Positions 4,031 through 61,325 of a stretch of 64,000 nucleotides of DNA are shown one piece after another; position 1 is the first letter of the stretch; each line of letters begins with the position of its first letter. The notes under the pieces were generated by a model. The model ran no database searches, was not told the DNA's origin, and was given only the letters and a program-made list of their open reading frames with translations. Source of the DNA: Hexactinellida sp. DTS-2022 (taxonomy: Eukaryota; Porifera; Hexactinellida); contig JAPNXP010000010.1 of assembly GCA_028753945.1 (NCBI GenBank), positions 5,149,042-5,213,041 of the forward strand, written 5' to 3'. Made by a program: the position numbers and the translations under genes.

Positions 4031-4252
4031 GAACAAACTTGTAGTTGGTCCGGCCATAGACTATTCACTGATTGATTTTTCCATTACCATGGATTACTTC
4101 AAGTCTATTTTGTAAACCACCCACAATATTTGAATATAAGTTTACCACAATTCAGTCTAGATCAATCTCTTTTCTATACATTTTTTGTGCCTTTCTATTT
4201 ACCACACCACTCTTTATTTATCTTTTCTTTCATTATTTTATATACTAGAATC

Positions 4253-7180
4253 ATGCCAAACAGGTGTAGTGTTGCTAATTGCACTTCTAATTATGATGGT
4301 ACTGAATATACTCCTATTTTTGAGATGTTACACCACTGGATACCACTGGCCAAAGGATGTACAAGATGATTGGAAAAAGTTTTTACATCGAGATGATGCC
4401 TGGCAATTGAGCAGAATTTTCATCTGCGCTAACCATTTTAGTGAGCAGGACCTGTTACTTTCTGTTGCAATTCCTCAAGGCGATGGTTCTATCAAGAAGT
4501 TTCCCCGTAAGCCTGGTCTTCGCAAGGGTGCTAAGCCTAATATTCTACCAAATTTCCCATCTTACTTACAAGATCAAAATGTACTTCCTGAACGTCTTGA
4601 CCGCGATGAATTAGATATCCGACATTTTCGTCAAGCGCTTCAGTTGAGTATTGCTGAACACCAAACAGAGAATGAAAAGTACTCCGTGATGAGCATTGAT
4701 GAAATGCAACACAAATATACAATTTTAAACTTGCATGAAGAATGGTTATATTTTCGCTCTAGTCCAACTACCCTACACATCTTCAAAAGAATCTTGTCTG
4801 GACATCTACTAATATTGTCTCACCAGATAATATTAAATGAAGAATTGAATGTCAAATGTTTTCTTAACGAGGTACCAATTCAAACACGGATTTCTCAGAT
4901 TACTGACATGCGTCAAATTTCTCAATTAATACAAGAACTCGACACGTATCAAAAGCCAGATGATATTGAGTTAGGAATCACCAAAGCTATCGATAGTGTT
5001 AAATACACAGTAGAAAAGTTAACAACTAACGAAGATACCACAATACATGATTCTCAAACTTTACTTAATCGTTTGCAATTTATTCTCTGTCAGCTCGAAA
5101 ACTTAGATATGTCTAAAACAAGACGTCGCTATAACGTCTTGACATTAGTCTTCTCCCTTAAAGCTCAATTGATATCTTCTGGTTGTTATAGATATTTGCA
5201 ATCATTGGATTGTCTTAGTTTACCCCATCCTTCAACACTCAGAAGACTCTATTCTAACATTGGTTTAGATACAAATTTTGTTGATTATTTGAAAGTTGAG
5301 TGCCAGAATTTTGATAAGTTCAAAAGATATGTTATTTTAAAACTTGATGAAATTCACGTACAGCCTAAGTATACCTACAAGGGAGGAAGAATCTTTGGTT
5401 CGCCTTTTATTAATCCCGATTCCATCACGTCTGTCAGCCAATCTTCTGACCTGGATCCAGCTAAAACTGTTTTGGCTTTTCAAATTTCAAGTCTCTTCAC
5501 CAAATGGTCCGATATTGTAAGACTCCTTCCATGTTGTAATGCTAAATCTTCTGAATTACTTCCAGTAGTTAATCAAGTAATTATAGACATCGAAAGTTGT
5601 GGCCTAATAGTAATAGCAATCTGCACTGACGATTACCAGTTGAACGTGAGTTTATTCAAATCGTTAGCTAATTCATCTAACTTGCAGTTTAGTTTTTCGA
5701 ACCCAGCTGATCCCACTCGAGCTATATTCTTGATGTCCGATCCAGTACATATTGTTAAATGTATTCGGAATAACTGGATAAATCAGAAAGATCCCCTTAC
5801 CACGCTTATTTTCCCATCTATCACTGATTATTTCAATAATACCTTTCCTTATCAACTAGCAACGGCTTCTTTCCAGGATATCAGGAACTTGTACAAGTTC
5901 GAACTATTTTCAAATGCTAAGACAGCCCACAAGTTAACTTCACAAGCAGTCTGGCCATCAACCTTTGAGAGACAAAGTGTACCCTTAGCTCTAGCAGTTT
6001 GGGATCAATCAACACATAACGCTATCTTTGTATTCAACCAGAGAAACAAAATTTTCAACCAGACTCATCAATTTATCGATCTTATATCCAGATTTTGGAA
6101 GATGTGCAACATTCATTGTCCTGGTAAAAATATTCGTCTACGTGATTCTGATTCCAAAGTATTCAAACACCAAGATGAACGTTTTGAATTTCTTGCAAAA
6201 TTTTGTTCTTGGCTTAAGAACTGGAAAATACATAGCTGTACAGGAAAAGCCGGCAAACTTAGCCCACAGACCTTTACCAGCTTAATTCACACTACTAAAG
6301 TAATTCCTAAAATTATCAATCATTTGACCAGCGATGAATGTGGATTTTCCTATGTGTTAACCGGATTCTTACAAAACGATCTCTAGAGAAGCATTTTGGC
6401 GTTTACCGGCTAATGTCTGGTTGCCAATACAACGTTTCCTTTTGTCAAGTTCTTGAGAGCGAGCGACGGATCAAGATTGGTAACATTCTCAAGTTGTACC
6501 AAGCCCAAGATGGCAAATATGAGTCGTCACTAAAGGAATTCGTTAGAGGTTTTTCAGTTCAACAGGATGCTGGAGTTCGCCAATCAGACTTGAACATTTA
6601 TTCTTTTCTTCTACATCAAAATTTTGAATTCTCACCTACAGTGGAAATCCGCCAAGCATTGGCTTTTTATTGGTGGATATGCAGTTCACAACATTTGTAA
6701 GAATATGCTCTATTCAAAGAAGTCTAAATTCACTACATATTGTAATCATTGTGTATCTCTACTCACTGAACTAGAATGTTTCTCTCTCGAGTGTGAAGAG
6801 TCGATCTTACAATAATTCACTTAGCTGACCGGGGTGGACTTAAATATCCATCCAATGATGTAATAAGCGCAGTTACTATTCAATGGCAAATACTTACTAT
6901 TCTTGAACAGAACCCAGCTTTGTTGAGACAATTCATTGCTGAATCAGACAAAAAGGTTCTAATTCAATTAGCGATATCTAGAATAGAATTTGTTAGTTTC
7001 GAATTCTGGAGAAATGAATGTCCTGACTGCCAGAAACCTTTTATGTACTATCTGGCTCAAATTCTCTCTGCTACTACTAATTGTTTATTGAAGAATAAAA
7101 TAAGAAATTTGAATTCTAAACGTGGCCTAAACAATCCTACAAGATCGACTAAAAAGCTACTAAAGTTGCAGTCAAAGTGA
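4253..7180 (+). pseudogene. THAP-domain P-element-like transposase (THAP9-like), frameshifted
   Basis: The start MPNRCSVANC opens a THAP zinc finger: C-x4-C, then C-x2-H in FICANHF, and a downstream KPNILPNFPS block. The large frame to 6386 carries the P-element-type catalytic core, with a first Asp in ILKLDEIHVQ, a second in CTDDYQLN, the block SDPVHIVKCIRNNW, and after a frameshift QND-LEKHFGVYRLMSG with the catalytic Glu. A C-terminal LADRGGLKYPS block follows in yet another frame. Four lesions are visible: a 10-bp tandem duplication inside the THAP domain (4332-4351), an extra CT at about 6384, an extra T in a T run at about 6670, and a shift near 6805-6830. A copy free of these would be about 950 residues, in the usual range for P/THAP9 transposases. 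Terminal repeats were not found. Confidence 0.85.
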
Positions 7181-47097: not shown

Positions 47098-47399
47098 ATC
47101 ATATTATAGATAGATATCCAGGATTGGGGTCAAAATTGACCATAATATATTAGCCAACTAAATAAATCACCAAGTCCCTCAGTTAACGGCCGCTACGCAG
47201 CGGCGCAGTCTTACTATCTTAAATAACTAACATAAATAATAAGTTAATATGTTGTTTGTAAAAACTACAATATCTATACAGTTGTTTGACAATTAGTTAA
47301 CCTGTTCTGGAGTCAACCCGATCGGAACTGAACGAGATATTATACTACAGCATGCTTAATCTACCTATCCTATTATGTTGTGATGAGCATGAGACACCG

Positions 47400-47605
47400 T
47401 AAATATATCTCACACTCACCAAGATCAACTTGTGATGGGTAGTGGTTTCGTCCTATCTCAAGGACTCATCAGGAGGGTAACCCTCGACCACACTACAACT
47501 GGTCTACTCCAGTTCTAGTTACCAGTGAGCCATACCGTATGCCTTCTCAGGCCGAACGACTCACCTACGCTAGGATCCCTCTAGCGCACTCCTGTCGGCC
47601 ATCAT
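47400..47605 (-). repeat. Hammerhead-bearing repeat (second copy)
   Basis: About 200 bp of unusually even base composition in AT-rich flanks. It contains an intact hammerhead ribozyme on the minus strand and, 5' of it, a stretch with GGTAACTAGAACTGGAGTAG that parallels the ACTGGTAACAGATGCCGACT stretch preceding the ribozyme at 56.3 kb. The region further 5' has strong local inverted symmetry (GCGCTAGAGGGATCCTAGCG). Confidence 0.65.
47442..47491 (-). ncRNA. Hammerhead self-cleaving ribozyme, type III, intact core
   Basis: Read on the minus strand: GTGGTC (stem III 5' strand plus the GUC cleavage triplet), GAGGG-TTA-CCCTC (stem I hairpin), CTGATGA (core), GTCCT-TGAGAT-AGGAC (stem II hairpin), GAA (core), ACCAC (stem III 3' strand). 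All invariant core residues are present. Cleavage is predicted after the C of GTC (plus-strand 47486). Compared with the 56-kb copy, the last stem II pair is T-A instead of C-G, a compensatory change. Confidence 0.93.
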
Positions 47606-47816
47606 GACAATGTCATAATATCATAATTTCGATTGAGAATCCAATTAATCGATGCCGCAGTGCAAAATTATCCCTCGATACAAATTTCAGGCTCTTTGAT
47701 ACGCATTACCTTTCCAATTCATTCAGGACAAACAGCCAAAATGAAGAATATTTGTCTTAAAATATATACATACGTAGATAGATTACATCACGAAAATGTA
47801 GTAGCTCACCTGTCAT

Positions 47817-54921: not shown

Positions 54922-55978
54922 GGGGCTGACTGAATAGTGGAATCTAGTGTAATCTAGTGGAACCTAGTGGAATCCAGTGGAATCTAGGGTAACTGAATGG
55001 TGGAATCTAGTGGAATCCAGTGGAATCTAGTGGAATCTAGTGGAATTACTAAATTTTAGTGGAATTGACTGAACGGTGGAATCGAGTGGATTTTCTAAAA
55101 ACCGACTGAACAGTGGAATCGAGTGGAATCTTTGACTGAATAGTGGAATCGAGTGGAATTTGACTGAATAGTGGAATCGAGTGGAATTTGACTGAATAGT
55201 GGAATCAAGTGGAATTTGATTAAATTGTTAAACACTACGTATATGCTACGTGTGTATCATATTACGTTAATTTTCGCCCATGTAAAATTGTTTGCAATGA
55301 TTGAACTAATGTTGTGCATGAAGTGGCACAATATGATACTATATTAGTATTCTTACTAATCATCTCTATTGAACTGCCCAATGAATACCAACTGGATTTG
55401 ATAAGTTGTTGATAAATAATGTTAATAAGATGTGTCTAAATAACATGGTAACAAAGCCTAACTAATAAATCCTATTGTGTCACTTCATGCACAACACTAG
55501 TTCAATCATTGCAAACAATTGTACATGGGCGAAAATTAACGTAATATGATACACACGTAGCTTATAGCATATACGTACGTAGTGTTTAACAATTTAATCA
55601 AATTCCACTCGATTCCACTTTTCAGTCAAATTCCACTAGATTCCACTCGATTCCACTATTCAGTCAAATTCCACTCGATTCCACTATTCAGTCAAAGATT
55701 CCACTCGATTCCACTGTTCAGTCGGTTTTTAGAAAATCCACTCGATTCCACCGTTCAGTCAATTCCACTAAAATTTAGTAATTCCACTAGATTCCACTGG
55801 ATTCCACTAGATTCCACCATTCAGTCACCCTAGATTCCACTAGATTCCACTGGATTCCACTAGGTTCCACTGGATTCCACTAGATTCCACCATTCAGTCA
55901 CCCTAGATTCCACTGGATTCCACTAGATTCCACTGGATTCCACTAGATTCCACTAGATTCCACTATTCAGTCAGCCCC
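54922..55978. mobile_element. Foldback MULE with satellite arms and 9-bp target duplication
   Basis: A 1,057-bp palindromic element. Its arms of about 450-500 bp begin GGGGCTGACTGAATAGTGG. The outer part of each arm is a tandem array of GTGGAATCTAGTGGAATC and GACTGAATAGTGGAATCGA units; the inner part is a unique palindromic block (containing TTTTCGCCCATGTA). A perfect 9-bp direct repeat ATAAATTGG flanks it (54913-54921, 55979-55987); 9 bp is the Mutator hallmark. No transposase frame is present, so it must depend on a MULE elsewhere. Confidence 0.9.
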
Positions 55979-56189: not shown

Positions 56190-56525
56190 ATGTTGTGAGT
56201 ATCACCTGGCCTTCAGGAGTATGGTCCTTGGGAAAGGCCATAGGTTGTCAGTACGGGCTGACTAGGACTACGGGTCCTAGTATTGACTAGCCGGCAGTAC
56301 GAACTGGTAACAGATGCCGACTGGCATTAGTGGAAGATGTGGTCGAGGGTTACCCTCCTGATGAGTCCCTACAATGGGACGAAACCACTGACTGACATAT
56401 TATCCCTGTGAGTTGAAGTCGACTAGAGCCGCTAGTCTTCATACTAGTTGGTGGCCTCATCTCATATCATTAGTACCTGCTCATTAAAATGATATGAGAT
56501 GAGGCCACCAAATAGTATGAAGACA
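56190..56525 (+). repeat. Hammerhead-bearing repeat (best-preserved copy)
   Basis: It contains an upstream structured block (GTCCTTGGGAAAGGCCATAG, CAGTACGGGCTGACTAGGAC), the intact ribozyme, and a downstream perfect-looking hairpin of about 90 nt (56434-56524). The hairpin arms read GTCTTCATACTA and GGTGGCCTCATCTCATAT. Modules are shared with the copies at 3.8-4.0 kb and 47.4-47.6 kb. No protein frame is present. The element type (retrozyme-like or Penelope-associated) cannot be decided from one window. Confidence 0.75.
56339..56388 (+). ncRNA. Hammerhead self-cleaving ribozyme, type III, intact core
   Basis: GTGGTC (56339-56344, stem III 5' strand plus GUC triplet), GAGGG-TTA-CCCTC (56345-56357, stem I), CTGATGA (56358-56364), GTCCC-TACAAT-GGGAC (56365-56380, stem II), GAA (56381-56383), ACCAC (56384-56388, stem III 3' strand). 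All conserved core residues are present. Stem I is closed and stem III is open, which defines type III. Cleavage is predicted after 56344. The 5-bp stem III is short, as in dimer-active hammerheads of small repetitive elements. Confidence 0.94.
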
Positions 56526-57264
56526 AACGATGTTTCTATGGAGCATGGTGTTGTCTTTATATTTGAAAATGTCAATTTCTCAATATTGTTGGGTAAACTG
56601 AGGTTTAAAGTAGCACCCATTTCCAATGATTGGACAACAATTTTCAGAGAACGATAACTCCCAGAAGAAGATTGTGTAATTAAAGTTTGGATTATTTCAG
56701 CGTTTTGAGTGTTTAATATAGCATATCAGCTCCGTTCCACTTGGGCTGCAGACAGTGGCGGCGCCAGGAATTGTATTCAGGGGGGGCTCTGGGCAGTGGC
56801 TCCTTGAGTCGGGTTCTAAATCCGCCCCCCTAGGCAAATTTGAAGCCGAGCCGCCCTCCAAATTTTCGAATACATGTCCTAATTTAGTAGTATATCGGGG
56901 AAACCGGAATTTGTCCTAACTGACTAGTGGAATTTGTCCTAATTTCTAACTTCGGAATTTGTCCTAAAACGAATCCGGAATTTGTCCTAAAGAAAACCCA
57001 ACATTGGAATTCGTCCTAAATATCTAAGTACTGGAATTTGTCCTAAATCTATAAGTACCGGAATTTGTTCTAATCTCTAACTACCGGAATTTGTCCTAAA
57101 TCTCTAACTACCGGAATTTGTCCTAGAGAAAACCCAACATTGGAATTTGTCCTAAGTTTCTATTTACTGATACAGTCGAGACCTGTTTTTCTAACTAACT
57201 ATTTATTTTAAATGTACAAGAAATTCCAACTTTTGTTTTATTTTCAATCGGTTTATTCTAACTA

Positions 57265-57349
57265 CAGTGTAACCTCGATTATCAGGACTGTAAATTATCC
57301 GGACTCATTTGAGTGGTCCCAATAAGTCCGGATAATCGAGGTTGCACTG
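57265..57349. mobile_element. 85-bp TA-flanked MITE
   Basis: Near-perfect palindromic element with ends CAGTGTAACCTCGATTATC and CAGTGCAACCTCGATTATC, with TA on both sides; the same terminal style as 37398-37890 (pogo/mariner-like). It is inserted in the left part of the MULE. Confidence 0.83.
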
Positions 57350-57674
57350 TATGGGATTTTTCATACTTTATTTCCATACTAAGAATTGGTTAGAATAAAA
57401 CAGGTTTCGCCTATAATGCAATTCGTAAGGTAGAATCTAGTTAATTTTTTGCTTTGAAACCTTAACCAGCAATTAGCGGTTTTATTGATGACTCATAAGT
57501 GTTTGTTTTGTATTTATTAACACCAAATATATGAATGGTTCTTTGTTCTCATTCAGTTCCAAAAGTTAATTATCAATTAAAATGTTTTATATTGATTCCT
57601 TCAAATATAAACAATACTATATAAACATATAGAATCGTAGGTTACAATTTTATTCCTATTTCTTTCAATTCGAC

Positions 57675-59270
57675 ATGGAATATTCTTTAGTAGAGGGTAA
57701 AAAGATAAATTCAAATAATTATGAATGCCAAGGTTTTCGTTATGTAAAATCTAGAGAATGTGAAACTTATATTTATCTTAAATGTGCCTTATTTAGAACG
57801 CATTCCTGCCTATCTATTGGAAGAATCGATAAAATCACTAACTTATTGGAATTAACTCGTGTCCATAATCATGATTCTGATTCTCATAATTGTAACAAAA
57901 TAATGATCAATAATGCAATCAAACGCAAAGCTGAAGTATCTACTGGTAGTCTCCGAGAAATATTTAATGAATCTTTCCGGGATGTTGATGGAGCATCATC
58001 AGTAACCTCTAAGAGCCTAGAAAGCAGCATGTTCAAGAGGAGGAAAATTCGACAACCAAAGTTACCGTCTTCTGTTCAAGAATTTGATGCACTCTTGCAG
58101 GAAACACAATATTCCACCATTCATCTACAAACCGTATTTCACATGGATCAGACAGCAATTATTTTTGGATCAGTTCGAATGGTTCTCTTTCTAAAGGAAT
58201 CAACAAATATTCAATTTGATGCAACATTTAAAGCTGTCCCCAGATTGTTTTATCAACTTTTTACCATTTTTGTTAGCATCAACCATCATGCCTTGCCTGC
58301 ACTCCATATTTTAATGACAAACAAAAGTGAAAAGTTATACAACGCTGTTGTATTAACAGTTCGGCAATTATTGCCTTCTTTTAATCCAACTTTTGCAATT
58401 GCTGATTTCGAAATAGCTCCGAGGAACTCATTTACACAGGTTTTTCCCTCCATTACGATAGTAGGTTGTTGGTTCCACTATACCAAAGCCATTTATGATA
58501 ACGTAAAAAATTGGTTTGTCAAAGTTATATAAGAAAAATCAGAATTTTCGGATATGGATTCGCAAGCTCATGGGATTACCTTTGCTTCCTGAAGAAGAAA
58601 TACTCCCTGTCTTTGGAGATACCTTCTTTAGGATTAATAAATTCAGAAAAGGAAATGGTTAAAAGGTTTAGGATATATTTTACCAACAGATGGATAAATG
58701 AACATGGTAACTTATCTGTTTTCTATTATGAAAATGCGACAAACAATGGGGCAGAGTCCTACCATAAAACATAAAATTCATACATAAAAATATCACACCC
58801 AAGCATTTGGAATTTCATGGGATATTTTTGGGCAACATAATTTCAGATATTGATTTGGAGCTGCAACGGTTGTTACAAGGACTTGAAACTACTAGAAAAT
58901 CTAATTCGGTGACCCAATCAAAGCAGATCAAAGGAATGAGTGTAAAAACAAATATTTGAATGGTTTCCTAAGCGCAGTCGAATACCTTAATGCTATCTCT
59001 CTAACTATCGGTCGTGATGACTACATACTTGGAAACCAATCACAAGTTCAAGATATTTCTGACAGTTTATCAGATTCAAATGAAAGTGCCGAAAATTCCG
59101 AACATTGTCATGTCTGTTTATTCCCTAGGAGTGAAAACTTCGCTCTCCTACATGATAATTGTGTTCACGGTGGCTATTGCAAAACTTGTGCTGATCGCTT
59201 GATGGGGATGAAGGCTAATTGTCCTATTTGTAGGAGCAGCATAAAAGGAGTATTGAAGATTTTTCAATAG
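57675..59270 (+). pseudogene. FLYWCH-MULE transposase with C-terminal RING finger (copy 3), frameshifted
   Basis: An N-terminal FLYWCH-like finger (GFRYVKSRECETYIYLKC, then VHNHDSDSH) leads into the MULE core: IQFDATFKAVPRLFYQLF (first Asp), AIADFEIAPRNSF (second Asp), GCWFHYTKAIYDNV, then in other frames LMGLPLLPEEEILPVFGDTF and NNGAESYHKT with the Glu. After WNFMGYFWA and EYLNAISL, the last open frame ends in a C3HC4 RING finger: CHVCL, then NCVHGGYCKTCADRLM, then CPICRSSI. RING fingers act in E3 ubiquitin ligases. Lesions include a stop at 58530-58532, frameshifts near 58520, 58625 and 58830, and a TAA at 58772-58774. The RING follows the transposase C-terminal region in a consistent frame, so the fusion looks original rather than a chance neighbour. 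Confidence 0.8.
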
Positions 59271-60375
59271 CTAAGTATTTCTAACCTATTTTCTTCATTA
59301 AAAACCTTACTTTAATTTAATAATCTTTTTGATATTTCGCAATATTTTATTCTTTTCCAGTTAATTTACATTAAACATCAACCTCTCTCCGAGTTTCGGA
59401 TTAATTTATACTTATTGGTATGTATTATGTTTTACAAATATAAGACAAATTCTAATCTCTTTTGAGAAAAATTCCAGAATATCCAACAATTTAATTTAGG
59501 TCAAATTCCAATGTTGGGTTTTCTTTAGGACAAATTCCAGTACTTATAGATTTAGGACAAATTCCAGTACTTAGATATATAGGACAAATTCCAGTACTTA
59601 GATATATAGGACAAATTCTAGTATTTAGAGATTTATGACAAATTCCAGCACTTATAGATTTAGGACAAATTCCAGTACTTAGAGATTTAGGACAAATTCC
59701 AATGTTGAGTTTTCTTTAGGACAAATTTCAGTACTTAGATATATAGGACAAATTCCAGTACTTAGATATATAGGACAAACTCTAGTACTTAGAGATTTAG
59801 GACAAATTCTAGTACTTAGAGATTTAGGACAAATTCCAGTACTTATTGATTTAGGACAAATTCCAGTACTTAGAGATTTAGGACAAATTCCAATGTTGGG
59901 TTTTCTTTAGGACAAATTCCAGTACTTAGATATATAGGACAAATTCCAGTACTTAGATATATAGGACAAATTCCAGTACTTATAGATTTAGGACAAATTC
60001 CAGTACTTAGAGATTTAGGACAAATTCCAATGTTGAGTTTTCTTTAGGACAAATTTCAGTACTTAGATATATAGGACAAATTCCAGTACTTAGATATATA
60101 GGACAAATTCCAGTACTTATAGATTTAGGACAAATTCCAGTACTTAGAGATTTAGGACAAATTCCAATGTTGAGTTTTCTTTAGGACAAATTTCAGTACT
60201 TAGATATATAGGACAAATTTCAGTACTTAGATATATAGGACAAATTCCAGTACTTAGATATATAGGACAAATTCCAGTACTTATAGATTTAGGACAAATT
60301 CCAGTACTTAGAGATTTAGGACAAATTCGAATGTTGGGTTTTCTTTAGGACAAATTTCAGTACTTAGATACGGAC

Positions 60376-61325
60376 GGACCTATGGGCCTGTGCCCCTGGG
60401 CACAGGCCCCATAGGTCCGTCGGTAATCGTACCCTGCTTGTGGCCCTAGGGTCAGATGTCCCCCCTCGGACACCTCACCCTAGGATCAGATGTCCCCCCA
60501 GACCAGTGGCCCTAGGGTCAGATGTCCCCCCGGACCTGTGGCCAGGGGCGTATTTGACGGGGGCTCCAGGGGCTCCATGGAGCCCCCAGTCGGTGCTCCA
60601 CTGGATCTGGTCGGAAGAAATAGAGTAAGAAGGAAGGAATGAAAATAATAGTTAAGTTCAGGGGGGAAAGTTAGAAAGGGTGGAAAAAGTTAGAATGATC
60701 AATTTGATCTTTTTGCTAAATAGTCTAAACACTGCAATTCTGAATATTGAAATGAATATTACTGAATTCATCATTGAAAATCGAATAGATGGCCTTCATC
60801 AACTCATTTTCGCATTATAAAAACCATGAAAATATGTTAATGTATTAAATATTTATATCATTTGAAACGTGTTGATGTTAATTAAGTACACAATATATTT
60901 TGAGTAGTTTTGGACTTTTGGTTAGTAAAACTCGATTATGTAACCTTTATTAATGATTAAGTTTTTTTAGTAATCATTAGTTAGGTTGGATTAATATAAA
61001 CTCGTCGGACAAGAAGTTGTGGAGTCCCACCTTGGCTTGGGGCCCTACGCCCCTGCCTGTGGCCCTAGTGTCAGGTGTCCCCCTTAGGATCAGATGTCTT
61101 CCCTCAGAAACCTCAAACTAGGGTCCCAGAACAATAAATTTCACAATGCACATCACTATAGTTTGATATTCTACATTTAAAGTAGTCCGATTAGGGGACA
61201 TCTGATCCTTAGGGGCCTAGGGGGACAGCTGACACTAGGGTGAGTAGTCCGAGTGGGGGACATCTGACCCTAGTACATGTCCGGGGGGACATCTGATCCT
61301 AGGGCCATAGGTCCGGGGGGACATT
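60376..61325. mobile_element. Foldback-like element with CCCTAGGGTCAGATGTCCCC arms
   Basis: The left side (60376-60545) starts with a strong hairpin around CGGACCTATGGGCCTGTGCC, then three to four copies of GGCCCTAGGGTCAGATGTCC. The right side (about 61190-61325) has three to four inverted copies and ends in the inverted CGGACCTATGGCC. The spacer holds another nested GC-rich hAT-like repeat (60543-61070). The architecture parallels the other satellite-armed elements; no target duplication was confirmed. Confidence 0.6.

Follow-up and report, generated by a model that had tools for sequence, protein, structure and literature searches.

Results

Two type III hammerhead ribozymes in a 64-kb window

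The window, i.e., the whole 64-kb stretch of DNA that was analyzed, includes genes for a 7tm_2 receptor and a C-type lectin, and the host genome yielded seven Ets-domain matches; Ets domains are not known outside animals, and these three findings bear out the animal host suggested by a preliminary description of the DNA. A Wnt family search of the host genome gave no match and was uninformative. A DNA-transposon remnant lies at 4161–6386, where a long reading frame encodes an RNase H domain of the TNP-like type (PF21787, 8.9e-15). The interval 56975–60490 is probably one transposon, in which the reading frame of a MULE transposase domain (57633–58532; PF10551, 1.4e-12) lies between oppositely oriented 27-bp repeats of the CCGGAATTTGTCCTAAAT type.

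The window also carries two type III hammerhead ribozymes. Positions 56337–56390 of the plus strand gave a full-length match to the Rfam Hammerhead_3 model (RF00008, model positions 1–54 of 54, 53.9 bits, E = 4e-9; gathering score of 48.5 bits), and the minimum-energy (MFE) fold of these 54 nt comprised an open stem III (GTGGT/ACCAC), stem I (GAGGG-TTA-CCCTC), and stem II (GTCCC and GGGAC, separated by 6 nt). The complete hammerhead placed at 56339–56388 in the preliminary description was recovered in this match, with the sequence as described and the proposed fold identical to the MFE fold; the GTC cleavage triplet ends at C56344, as had been stated, and cleavage of the RNA is predicted after this residue (plus strand). 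That inventory of the window had, however, overlooked a second and better copy at 47440–47493 of the minus strand, which scored 60.2 bits against RF00008 (E = 6.5e-11), adopted a type III minimum-energy fold, and is predicted to be cleaved after C47486 on the minus strand. An exact 24-mer of the ribozyme gave 0 matches when compared with viral contigs.

Genome-wide copies and compensatory changes

A covariance-model scan of the genome, the check that had been proposed for the ribozyme, revealed further copies above threshold: RF00008 matched the 112.4-Mb host genome at least 68 times, with at least 64 matches above the cut-off, and this count is a lower bound from which the window's own copy at 56337 is missing. 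When up to two mismatches were allowed, a 29-nt pattern of the ribozyme core was found 378 times (185 + 193) in the 112-Mb genome, which is far above chance because the reversed-pattern control gave 0 + 0 matches. Among 18 sources scanned, a Hammerhead_3 match was present in 14 of 14 retrozyme loci, the scores of L085 and L097 falling just under the gathering score; weak matches to miRNA families in L085 and L093 were below their own thresholds and were ignored.

From 59 distinct motifs collected, 54 were aligned and five were left out (truncated or with insertions). Compensatory changes are present in the stems of the aligned motifs: standard pairs filled 97.5% of the 810 pair cells and double-sided changes occurred in 34 cells, neither value being reached in any of 500 shuffles, and five pairs showed double-sided change compared to a shuffled mean of 2.6 (8 of 500 shuffles reached 5). 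Because CTGATGAG and CGAAA were part of the pattern by which the aligned rows had been picked, nothing can be concluded from the fact that these two elements are invariant; the covariation sits in stem columns that the selection pattern left free.

LTR-like units in at least three families

The ribozymes are located within LTR-like units of ∼215 to 330 nt with TG..CA ends. Sequence comparison indicates at least three families of such hammerhead elements in the genome (A, B, and C), with A and B present in the window. When one copy of each was compared, the alignments were restricted to the ribozyme (49–52 nt), and A and C aligned over ∼71 nt, i.e., ∼20 nt beyond the ribozyme. The preliminary description had proposed a dispersed non-coding repeat of retrozyme-like character, and this view is supported; the LTR type, the existence of at least three families, the Ty3-like partner of family C, and the presence of two families in the window had gone unseen.

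The family A unit of the window, TGTTGTGAGTATC...CATCTCATATCA, spans 279 nt (56191–56469, plus strand), its ends having been set by comparison with other copies, and no target duplication of this copy was recognizable. It is followed by a 3′ hairpin linker (ttagtacctgctcattaaaa, 56470–56489, plus strand) that is decayed compared to perfect hairpins elsewhere, its arms having four mismatches and thus exceeding the limit of three, and by a truncated, inverted family A 3′ end (56490–56524, minus strand) that was identified by self-match at 84% identity. The 3′ end and its inverted copy form a 90-nt palindrome (56435–56524) with the same geometry as complete inverted dimers at other loci, and the window copy is a truncated tail-to-tail inverted dimer. 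Directly upstream, positions 54924–55976 hold a ∼1-kb near-perfect inverted repeat of short ATTCCACTAG/CATTCAGTCA-type units.

The family B unit, TGTCATGATGG...GCTCATCACA, spans 231 nt (47379–47609, minus strand). Its ends were placed by genome matches spanning both of them, as was the case for 34 of 49 among the matches listed (40 of 300 candidates scored). The target-site duplication (TSD) ACAT, read on the minus strand, occupies 47610–47613 on the upstream side and 47375–47378 on the downstream side of this unit (locus L017). The family B copies L070, L071, and L073 are distributed over two chromosomes and have the same flanks, indicating that this insertion was spread as part of a larger host repeat. 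Family C is exemplified by positions 354–575 of L081, with TG..CA ends placed by locus comparison.

Target-site duplications

The length of the TSD fits the family group, being mostly 4 bp in A and B and 5 bp in C. An automatic scan of 60 single units found a 4-bp duplication at 13 of 32 family A units (shuffled mean 0.7, maximum 5) and 5 of 15 family B units (shuffled mean 0.5, maximum 4), with no 5-bp duplication at any of these 32 A and 15 B units; a 5-bp duplication was found at 2 of 13 family C units, where each LTR of a complete element was handled separately. For some of the 19 A and 10 B units that had no 4-bp match, this result arises because they lie inside dimers, where the flanks are not target sites. 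Among 16 whole units, mostly chosen after the duplication had been seen by eye, the TSD was 4 bp in nine of nine A/B units and 5 bp in six of seven family C units; the one exception, L095, had no target duplication. Some TSDs match by eye at only three of four bases. Eight outward-facing inverted pairs were scanned automatically, and a 4-bp TSD was present in four; those without one were L095, the inner pair of L062, and the family A dimers L004 and L047, which are outside the 16 chosen units. The family B units L063 and L086 were broken by later insertions and kept their duplications. At L082 (185–659), two head-to-tail family B units with few bases between them share a single 4-bp duplication, CTCC, so that an LTR-LTR junction was inserted here in one piece.

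Complete copies, hairpins, and inverted dimers of families A and B

Most A, B, and C units seen are single LTRs, and the LTR reading of families A and B rests on few complete copies. Two-LTR copies of family A are L062, L100, and L097, the last of which is incompletely covered by the retrieved sequence; the cleavage sites of L062 are 486 nt apart, and this copy is part of a 2184-bp complex flanked by CTAT. Two-LTR copies of family B are L084, L085, and L088, in all of which the first LTR is internally deleted. L084 has an LTR-internal-LTR form inside one 4-bp TSD (AAAC), and the core of its first ribozyme is altered. The purine tracts before the second LTR of the A and B copies are weak, as judged by eye. 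The first LTRs of L083, L084, L085, and L088 have an internal deletion in common, which follows the ribozyme and leaves some 20-odd nt of unrelated sequence next to the right arm of the hairpin; these copies apparently go back to a single aberrant source.

In the complete A and B copies, the LTR is directly followed by a hairpin, not a tRNA-type primer site, and the final 7 nt of the LTR are part of the hairpin stem. Among 77 A/B LTR 3′ ends in the collected loci, a matching right arm (called with up to three mismatches in 14 nt) was present in 22 and absent in 55, the latter as expected for single-LTR insertions. An inverted LTR came next at 13 of the 22 ends with a right arm, and something else at nine. 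The 14-nt arms were free of mismatches in six loci with internal-type sequence next (L004, L045, L062, L083, L097, and L100), of which L004 is itself an inverted dimer, and the perfect arms vary in sequence (e.g., TAATAAC/GTTATTA, TTAGTAC/GTACTAA, and TCATAAC/GTTATGA). Tail-to-tail inverted dimers with the hairpin at the joint and the 4-bp duplication around them as one unit were found at L018/L019, L053/L056, L083, and the L062 complex. Family C also makes inverted dimers, and does so without a hairpin (L095 and L096); dimers alone therefore do not prove self-priming, and the hairpin dimers of A and B may represent palindromes that arose at the DNA level.

No autonomous partner was found for family A or B. 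A hairpin pattern search for an A-type autonomous element led to two places, both members of the A, B, and C families. L061, where two family A copies form a pair of 5.1 kb, was considered as an autonomous element and rejected, as its frames of >90 amino acids were only low-complexity and showed no reverse transcriptase by eye, and the left copy has a flank in common with the right copy, as if duplicated. At L103 (380–801), an internally deleted family A inverted dimer adjoins an integrase-like coding fragment that may resemble Ginger-type integrases.

Complete family C elements and a candidate Ty3-like partner

The complete family C elements (L081/L090, L091, and L093/L101) have two LTRs of ∼220 nt, each with one ribozyme, around an internal region of ∼150 nt (149 nt in L081), and the distance between cleavage sites is 372 nt in L081, 380 nt in L091, and 371 nt in L093. 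The internal region of L081, L091, and L093 begins with the primer site TTGGCGACGAAGGTGGGATC, and the purine tract ends in AAGGTGAGAGGAG just before the TGTAG of the second LTR; a polypurine tract, GGATAAGGTGAGAGGAG, was recognized by eye before the 3′ LTR. In L092 the 5′ LTR is down to a 27-nt remnant, and in L080 an insertion interrupts it. L080 and L095 have a different primer site, TTGGTGCATTGGCCGGGAAC, the first part of which (TGGTGCATTGGCCGGGAA) is presumably the complement of the 3′ end of tRNA-Gly(GCC).

The primer sites of family C are of the TTGG.. type, and one of them is also present in Ty3-like elements. A 17-nt primer-site pattern with up to one mismatch was found at six places in the whole genome, namely, in four family C retrozymes and in the bodies of two Ty3-like retrotransposons, L089 and L094. 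No tRNA gene matching the primer site (up to one mismatch over 17 nt) turned up, and ARAGORN reported 0 tRNAs in the window and 0 in L089–L094. Over the LTR end and primer site, family C shares at least 24 identical nt with L094 and at least 21 with L089. L094, in which the reading frames are broken, encodes a reverse transcriptase (RVT_1, PF00078, 2.7e-21) whose closest solved structure is that of Ty3 (3.9e-33), with an RNase H downstream; the gag-like frame of L089 gave no Pfam match. Two LTR copies related to L089 start with TGTAGTATC after GGAGGGAGATG, and family C LTRs start with TGTAGTATCGG after their purine tract, so that the 5′ box common to C and the L089-type LTRs amounts to 9 nt, TGTAGTATC, after a similar purine tract. 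An Rfam scan of L089, L094, and the two L089-related LTR loci detected no hammerhead in these four. The common LTR ends and primer site point to a Ty3-like partner of family C in the same genome. A further repeat, which has inverted ends of the GTGCTCGACAAATTAGGTGG type, interrupts the 5′ LTR of L089.

Discussion

We strongly favor the explanation that these elements are LTR retrozymes, i.e., that a self-cleaving, circularized RNA is moved by Ty3-type machinery and, in families A and B, primed by the hairpin, because the type III hammerheads sit inside TG..CA units with LTR-internal-LTR copies and short TSDs. From this architecture, which is directly observed, we infer self-cleavage, circular RNA, and mobility as follows. 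The transcript of a complete copy would cut itself in both LTRs, and an RNA ligase of the host would circularize the released RNA of ∼0.37 to 0.49 kb, for which a Ty3-type element would then supply the reverse transcriptase and, for insertion, the integrase. In families A and B, reverse transcription would start from the hairpin right after the LTR in place of a tRNA, an interpretation of the hairpin's position that makes it a putative self-primer. Extension of a 3′ end in the right arm across the LTR would give tail-to-tail inverted dimers, and single-round copying would give many one-LTR insertions. Tf1-type LTR retrotransposons are comparable in that they self-prime from the element's own RNA instead of a tRNA; they use its 5′ end, whereas the putative primer described here is a hairpin that immediately follows the LTR. 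The fuller proposal, that an animal lineage evolved LTR retrozymes dispensing with tRNA priming, in which a self-cleaved circle of 0.4 to 0.5 kb with its own hairpin primer yields one-LTR insertions and inverted dimers, is offered tentatively and we hold it to be somewhat doubtful.

Families A and B might instead be MITEs with TGTTATGAG-type terminal inverted repeats, a 4-bp TSD, and an integrase-type transposase, the hammerhead being merely carried. Their terminal inverted repeats (imperfect), their occurrence mostly as single units, the inverted dimers, and the 4-bp TSD are all compatible with such an origin, as is the internally deleted copy next to an integrase-like fragment at L103. We nevertheless judge it unlikely, given the LTR-internal-LTR forms within one 4-bp TSD (AAAC at L084 and CTAT at the L062 complex), the purine-rich stretches ahead of the second LTR, and the same ribozyme in family C, which is clearly LTR-type. 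The strong conservation of the ribozyme also argues against a carried sequence: among 11 distinct family B sequences, gathered mostly by whole-unit similarity and all required to contain CTGATGA, the ribozyme differs by 0.65% per pair compared to 10.5% elsewhere. This difference, along with the compensatory changes in the stems, likewise makes it improbable that the copies are fossils whose ribozyme is carried along in a decayed state and no longer has a function, although core changes do occur in L038, L041, and L051 (by eye) and in the first motif of L084, 2.5% of pair cells are unpaired, and, by eye, some TSDs match at three of four bases. Near-identical LTR pairs speak against fossils as well; the two LTRs of the L081 element were 100 and 99% identical to the query LTR and those of the L093 element 97 and 99%, and from this high identity the insertions look young. 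Non-LTR animal retrozymes, i.e., hammerhead-processed tandem repeats moved by a LINE or Penelope-like element, would be compatible with the unit size of 215 to 330 nt, the animal host, and the one head-to-tail unit pair (L082), but are hardly tenable in view of the type III rather than type I hammerhead, the dispersed rather than satellite-like copies, the primer sites, the Ty3-like partner for C, and the complete elements that refute this account for family C, and mobilization of the LINE or Penelope type was rejected because of the TG..CA ends and the 4- to 5-bp duplications.

The LTR retrozymes of plants, as described in PMC4918200, carry a type III hammerhead in each LTR, have a non-coding interior with a PBS and PPT, produce a 4-bp TSD, and leave solo LTRs; only boxes at the LTR ends and PBS/PPT are common to them and Ty3/Gypsy elements, according to the same source. 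The elements reported here have the layout given there, with a type III hammerhead inside the LTR and two direct LTRs around a non-coding interior in families C (L081, L091, and L093) and A (L062 and L100); in family B the two-LTR form is L084, with its first LTR internally deleted. The 5′ and 3′ boxes common to Ty3/Gypsy elements are present in family C only, which thereby repeats the plant pattern of PMC4918200 in that these LTR-end boxes alone are common. The differences are that the host is an animal and the LTRs measure ∼215 to 330 nt, that the cleavage sites are 371 to 486 nt apart (four copies) versus the 697 to 776 nt given for Jatropha, that the GC content is ∼50 to 53% (one LTR per family and two computed circles) versus the >55% stated for plants in PMC7229834, and that the TSD of family C is 5 bp rather than the 4 bp described for plants. 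The primer sites also depart from those described for plants, family C having sites other than that of tRNA-Met and families A and B having a hairpin in place of a tRNA site.

The metazoan non-LTR retrozymes described in PMC7229834 consist of tandem repeats with type I hammerheads and are without LTR, PBS, and PPT. The present elements resemble them in that both occur in animals, are non-coding, carry a hammerhead, and measure a few hundred nt; they differ from that description in their full-length RF00008 type III motif and in having LTRs, primer sites, and purine tracts. LTR retrozymes with type III hammerheads are assigned to plants, and non-LTR retrozymes with type I hammerheads to animals, in PMC7229834, PMC7761336, and PMC11722881, and the last of these states, with regard to plant retrozymes, that complete LTR retrozymes were identified only in dicots. 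The preliminary description expected a type III ribozyme in a dispersed non-coding animal repeat to be unusual. Animal hammerheads of type III are not without precedent: such motifs are reported for delta-like RNAs of a toad and a termite and for the genomes of dipterans (PMC7936874), and an atypical type III motif for mammalian Clec2 genes (PMC6155905). The topology in PMC7936874 is like that seen here, whereas those motifs are described as having atypical long helices with a pseudoknot; its available text treats the termite genomic motifs as isolated and describes no LTR element. Bivalve TRIM elements (PMC6934838) are likewise small, non-autonomous LTR elements of animals, and the available text of that source does not mention a ribozyme. 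A search over open-access papers recognized no animal LTR retrozyme.

The plant layout in an animal, along with the apparent Ty3-like partner of one family, would imply that ribozyme and LTR were assembled independently or that the element is of old age or was transferred horizontally. Each of these origins bears on the source of ribozyme-bearing circular RNAs, viroid-like ones included, and the hairpin that replaces the primer site in families A and B would provide a testable alternative start of reverse transcription.
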